Shown: piece by piece, positions 43,912 to 44,651 of the stretch | Numbering within the stretch: position 1 is the first letter of the stretch | Layout: each line of letters starts with the position of its first letter | Origin: Fibrobacteria bacterium | Lineage (GTDB): Bacteria > Fibrobacterota > Fibrobacteria > UBA11236 | DNA length: 44,651 nt | Assembly: GCA_021155885.1 (NCBI GenBank) | Contig: JAJNBB010000015.1 | Span: forward strand, 1 to 44,651 | Reading direction: 5' to 3' | Program-made: the position numbers and the translations under genes | The notes under the pieces: model-generated | Databases searched by the model: none | Seen by the model: only the letters and a program-made list of their open reading frames with translations | Told to the model about the DNA's origin: nothing

Positions 43912-44144
43912 CGAAGAAGGACGGTAACAATCCACGCATCGTTCGCAAGATCTTCCTGGAGGAATGAATTCCGAAGGCTAAAAAAATACCATATAAACAA
44001 ATAATAATATTGTTTAAGATAATTAATTATAAAATCTCGTGCAAAAATCCCCCGCTTCATCCCAATTGCAACGCTAAGTTAGGCGGCAATGGGGTATTTC
44101 AAAATGTTTCAGCCGCCCCTCAACGTTTAACAATCGGGGAAATC
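43912..44144. promoter_or_regulatory. AT-rich divergent promoter region between recC and the DUF2341 gene
   Basis: A sharp drop in GC marks 43980-44035 (tracts such as AAATAATAATATTG and TTAATTATAAAA), plausibly a promoter zone for both genes; several weak -10-like boxes exist, none with a good -35. Near 44061-44093, CCCAATTGC and GCAATGGGG form an imperfect stem in the DUF2341 leader, a possible regulatory hairpin. No gene is present. Confidence 0.4.
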
Positions 44145-44651
44145 ATGAAGAAACTGCTTGTCCTCTCGGCCATGGCCGGCCTGTTCGCATGGCCCGTGGG
44201 CGCCCAGGAGAACTACGCCACCTGGTCCCAATCGCGAACCTACATCCTGAACACTACCGCCGGCGGAGCCAACGTAGCGGGCCAGGTCCTGAATTTCCCC
44301 GTGTTGGTTCGGCTCGGCGCCGCGGAGCCAACGTAGCGGGCCAGGTCCTGAATTTCCCCGTGTTGGTTCGGCTCGGCGCCGAGGACTCCGACATTTTCAC
44401 CGCGGCCAAGGCCGGCGGCGCCGACATACGCTTCGACAAGCTCAACGGAACGCATCTTCCCTATCAAATCGAAAGCTGGGACGCCGTGGGCAAATCCGCG
44501 GCGATATGGGTGCTCATGGATACTGTGAAGGGAAATAGCTCGGCGCAGAACGTGCGCATGCGCTGGGGTAACGCCGGCGCCTTCGACAGCTCCAGTGGAA
44601 CCGCGGTGTTCGACACCGCGAAGGGCTTCAAGGCCGTGTGGCATTTCAGCG
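44145..44651 (+). pseudogene. Secreted DUF2341 / LamG-like protein, frameshifted and truncated by the window end
   Basis: ATG at 44145 with GGGGA upstream. Residues 1-20 are a signal peptide (MKKLLVLSAMAGLFAWPVGA). The next part, GANVAGQVLNFPVLVRLGA, is the opening of a DUF2341 domain, a carbohydrate-binding-like module often paired with a LamG/concanavalin domain. A 59-base tandem duplication then shifts the frame and gives a stop at 44336. In the second frame the DUF2341 domain resumes without gap (EDSDIFTAAKAGGADIRF, SWDAVGKSAAIWVLMDTV, MRWGNAGA), followed by FKAVWHFS, the start of a LamG-like region. Removing one copy restores a single frame, so the break is recent, phase-variable or an assembly artefact. 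The gene continues past the window. Confidence 0.8.
44263..44381 (+). repeat. 59-base tandem direct duplication inside the DUF2341 gene
   Basis: Positions 44263-44321 are repeated exactly from 44322, with the match extending one base to 44381. Because 59 is not a multiple of three, the second copy shifts the reading frame and brings a TAG at 44334-44336 into frame. Confidence 0.95.

Follow-up and report, generated by a model that had tools for sequence, protein, structure and literature searches.

A 59-base exact tandem duplication probably inactivates one member of a secreted DUF2341-LamG family in a Fibrobacteria genome

The window, i.e., the whole stretch of DNA analysed here (44,651 nucleotides), is a complete contig (C68) of a draft Fibrobacteria genome (2.59 Mb, 101 contigs, 87.5% complete), and it carries an exact tandem duplication of 59 bases within a DUF2341 gene close to the contig end. 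We favor the reading, at a probability of roughly 0.6, that this is a recent and sporadic slipped-strand duplication in one member of a large secreted DUF2341-LamG family, and its effect, as far as the sequence allows it to be judged, is best read as a loss-of-function allele of one redundant paralogue. The array covers 119 bases (44263-44381) and consists of two units:

44263..44321, + strand, first 59-base unit
44322..44380, + strand, second 59-base unit, an exact copy of the first, with the match extending one base further, to 44381

Bases 44263-44322 are identical to 44322-44381, giving a 60-base exact match with a period of 59, so that the two abutting exact copies described in the first-pass annotation are exact to the base. 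The array is preceded by ACCGCCGGCGGAGCC, the two-copy junction reads GGCGCCGCGGAGCC, and the sequence directly 3' of the units, which would follow the single unit in a one-copy form, is GAGGACTCC. Outside the array, exact runs in the window at periods between 10 and 300 reach at most 13 bases, and 15 first-order Markov simulations produced longest exact runs of 11-14 bases, arguing that the 60-base match is not a product of chance. In a repeat scan of about 388 kb sampled from the genome, the window included, it is the sole exact tandem duplication with a unit of at least 22 bases.

In the assembled sequence, translation from the ATG at 44145 loses its frame at the unit junction, since 59 bases do not make up whole codons, and halts at a TAG (44334-44336) after 63 residues, leaving the gene in two parts:

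44145..44336, + strand, truncated frame of the DUF2341 gene as assembled, 63 residues comprising the signal peptide and the stretch ahead of the DUF2341 core
44382..44651, + strand, rest of the first DUF2341 domain in the original frame, which goes on in contig C75, bases 1-2735

The start of the product reads as a signal peptide, and the gene matches PF10102 at 44417-44632 with 51.9 bits (51.3 bits for the protein, P0001), above the curated cut-off of 23.4 bits; with the stop in place, no continuous frame runs from signal peptide to LamG. When the unit is counted once, a single continuous frame extends from ATG 44145 to the window end. The frame shift, the stop and the assignment to a secreted DUF2341-LamG protein had all been recognized in the first-pass annotation, and its proposal that removing one copy yields a continuous DUF2341-LamG frame agrees with the open frame up to the window end, the LamG portion itself lying outside the window on C75. 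A possible rescue start, ATG 44189, opens the downstream frame without a signal peptide, and a secreted product from it is therefore unlikely.

The last 99 bases of the window (44553-44651) are identical to the first 99 bases of C75 (L039 1-99), and across this overlap the frame stays open for 2,906 bases past the array, ending at C75:2735. The C75 part of the gene encodes the LamG, two Ig-like stretches, a second DUF2341, a second LamG and a weak FlgD-like end, and beyond it lie another four DUF2341-LamG genes, with a transglycosylase gene after them. Divergently from the broken gene lies a neighbor that is shared in synteny with a same-genus genome:

40390..43935, - strand, recC (Exonuc_V_gamma)

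In that genome (G001), recC is divergently flanked by two DUF2341-LamG genes, one of which shares 61% identity with a member of the C75 array, and then by the same transglycosylase (67% identical). Judged from sequence, the C68-C75 join is well supported, since the 99-base overlap is accompanied by the shared order recC, DUF2341 genes, transglycosylase. A recC protein search of genome contigs returned no match, and the same-genus recC was found by a wider genome search. The local array (L039 1-10342) comprises, between recC and the transglycosylase, five DUF2341-LamG genes with seven DUF2341 domains, the broken one included, as against two genes at the corresponding place in G001 (L236 431-3518); either the array grew here or it shrank in the relative, as a lineage-specific expansion or loss. 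Within the divergent spacer between recC and the DUF2341 gene, a stretch at 43980-44060 is AT-rich, unlike the GC-rich region around it, and each strand carries one weak promoter-like match.

The 2.6 Mb genome contains 28 DUF2341 domains, frequently two or three to a protein, and several of them lie near contig ends (C37, C61, C75 and C100). The remaining 27 all sit within open frames that span 425 to 1,480 codons, and the broken gene is the only member of the family seen interrupted. Six DUF2341 domains of C75 align with the window's domain and contain nothing resembling a second unit, nor does the wider motif listing; since the related domains examined are single-copy, the alignments indicate that one unit is the ancestral state. 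A search for a close-relative ortholog with either one or two copies found none, the relatives offering only diverged single-copy paralogues, with best matches about 70% identical. Similar arrays were likewise sought in the sampled 388 kb, in the same-genus loci and in 80 DUF2341 loci (567 kb), and none of this kind was found; apart from runs of N, the scans turned up nothing but one 22-base repeat, in a Gemmata record. One same-genus DUF2341 locus (G002:C10, L066 2507-2892) contains a 125-base exact direct repeat at a distance of 261, which is not tandem. The two copies of the window's array agree at 60 of 60 positions, which puts their divergence at no more than about 4.9% (95% upper bound), and together with the 2.9 kb frame still open downstream this points to a young lesion, the age of which is only bounded by that figure. 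The "very recent" origin proposed earlier thus stands as a young event, with "very recent" carrying no tighter limit than the same bound.

An assembly error near the contig end had been offered as an alternative, and the array does lie only 270 bases from the end of a contig in a fragmented, incomplete draft, where the outer 400 bases of contigs amount to only about 3% of the assembly. The assembly itself speaks against a pure assembler error. Among 77 contig ends sampled, eight overlapping pairs were found, and seven of the eight overlaps are exactly 99 bases long, which indicates a de Bruijn assembly with k=99; a public genome of the same genus bears a contig name beginning k99. The exact 99-base overlaps also allow several contigs of the genome to be ordered. 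At k=99, a 60-base repeat would be resolved, each 99-mer across the array being unique, and since the junction homology is one base only, such an assembler would need reads that hold the junction. The junction is not accounted for by an overlap of k-mer length, the repeat being 60 bases, the junction overlap 1 base and the inferred k 99. The contig runs through the array and ends only afterwards, and an abundant one-copy allele would be expected to fork the graph at the array, arguing that the assembled reads contained none. On this assembler logic the junction probably existed in the sequenced DNA, and we infer that the duplication was present in the DNA of the cell. A different form of artefact is that chimeric or PCR-slipped minority reads, or processing of the contig end, produced the second unit while the gene in the population is one-copy and intact. 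That all other family members are intact would fit such an origin, and the hairpin-prone unit ends described below could cause polymerase slippage in vitro too; we regard it as the chief competitor of our reading but nevertheless as rather unlikely, given the single base shared by unit end and start, the unforked contig and the absence of a second such array in the 388 kb.

For the duplication as a real event, slippage is likely to be the general cause. The nascent strand would slip back at a GC-rich, hairpin-prone spot, the slipped segment would be copied twice to give the two 59-base tandem units, and the resulting frame shift would halt translation after 63 residues. The junction reads CGCCG-CGGAGCC, and homology in the single-copy form amounts to 1 base, or to 5 bases if one base is skipped, the 5 bases being a possible mispairing site that is one base out of register:

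44258..44262, + strand, CGCCG, which recurs 60 bases on at 44318-44322 and again at 44377-44381

Pairing between the 12 bases at one end of the unit and the 12 at the other is stronger than in 99.4% of same-length segments in the window and 99.8% in the gene, in a test made post hoc, after the unit was known, whereas the whole fold of the unit is no better than shuffles (z -0.73); with end pairing in the top 0.2-0.6% and an ordinary whole fold, hairpin folding of the nascent strand is offered as a suggestion for the cause. Plain slippage between the CGCCG sites predicts 60 bases, in frame, with one G more than is observed. It is conceivable, if very improbable, that the real event was this in-frame 60-base duplication and that one junction G is missing through later deletion or sequence error: the sites at 44258 and 44318 are spaced by 60, and the observed CGCCG-CGGAGCC is one G short of CGCCG-GCGGAGCC, yet two events are then required, and short-read assemblies seldom lose single bases except in long homopolymers. 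If the missing G were a sequence error, the protein would be untruncated and carry a 20-residue repeat.

A sporadic slipped-strand duplication remains our preferred reading, and it differs from the slipped-strand phase variation that the first-pass annotation had proposed. Under phase variation, frequent gain and loss of the 59-base unit would turn the surface protein off and on in the population, on the model of the capsule genes in serotypes 3, 8 and 37 of pneumococcus. The array has features expected of such a switch: it is an exact tandem duplication that shifts the frame early in a surface-type gene, the remaining frame is open, and unit number decides the frame, one unit keeping it and two stopping it; moreover, PMC4243769 and PMC2995930, citing Waite 2001 and 2003, report such duplications in pneumococcal capsule genes as reversible. 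What argues against it is that the repeat that would make gain and loss frequent is hardly present beforehand (1 base, or 5 bases one out of register), that no third copy exists, that related arrays are absent from the paralogues, the same-genus loci and the 80 related loci, and that the unforked contig speaks against an abundant one-copy form among the reads assembled. Phase variation at this gene is therefore improbable, and the proposal is not supported. Like any tandem duplication, this one could physically revert by losing a unit, and a dedicated switch at the array is not supported, no sign of one being seen. Broader still, and with very little chance of being correct, is the idea that Fibrobacteria-related bacteria vary their expressed DUF2341-LamG members through hairpin-promoted reversible tandem duplications. 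If shown, phase variation would be a first hint of it in the DUF2341-LamG family; nothing here supports it. The significance of the array beyond this genome is small: a single allele is inactivated in a secreted lectin-like family that is large and has expanded locally, and annotation will list the gene as broken at the edge of a contig though the remainder sits intact on the next contig.

In simple-sequence-repeat contingency loci, as in the array, a change in the number of repeats close to the 5' end of a surface gene would shift the frame and so switch the gene; those loci, however, are tracts of short units, whereas the array consists of two copies of a 59-base unit and has no related loci. 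A nearer parallel is provided by pneumococcus, where tandem duplications within cap3A, cap8E and tts are reported to switch the capsule off reversibly (Waite 2001, 2003, cited in PMC4243769, PMC2995930 and PMC4022640). There, too, a tandem duplication in a coding frame inactivates a surface-structure gene, but the gene family and phylum are different, and reversion and mixed populations were reported there in culture, whereas the window's array is known from a single assembled sequence. In its own family, the gene has the common plan of the secreted DUF2341 (PF10102)-Laminin_G_3 (PF13385) proteins of Fibrobacterota, namely a signal peptide, DUF2341, LamG, He_PIG and a weak FlgD-like C-terminal stretch, a layout that the neighboring paralogues share, and it differs from other such proteins in being interrupted after 63 residues.
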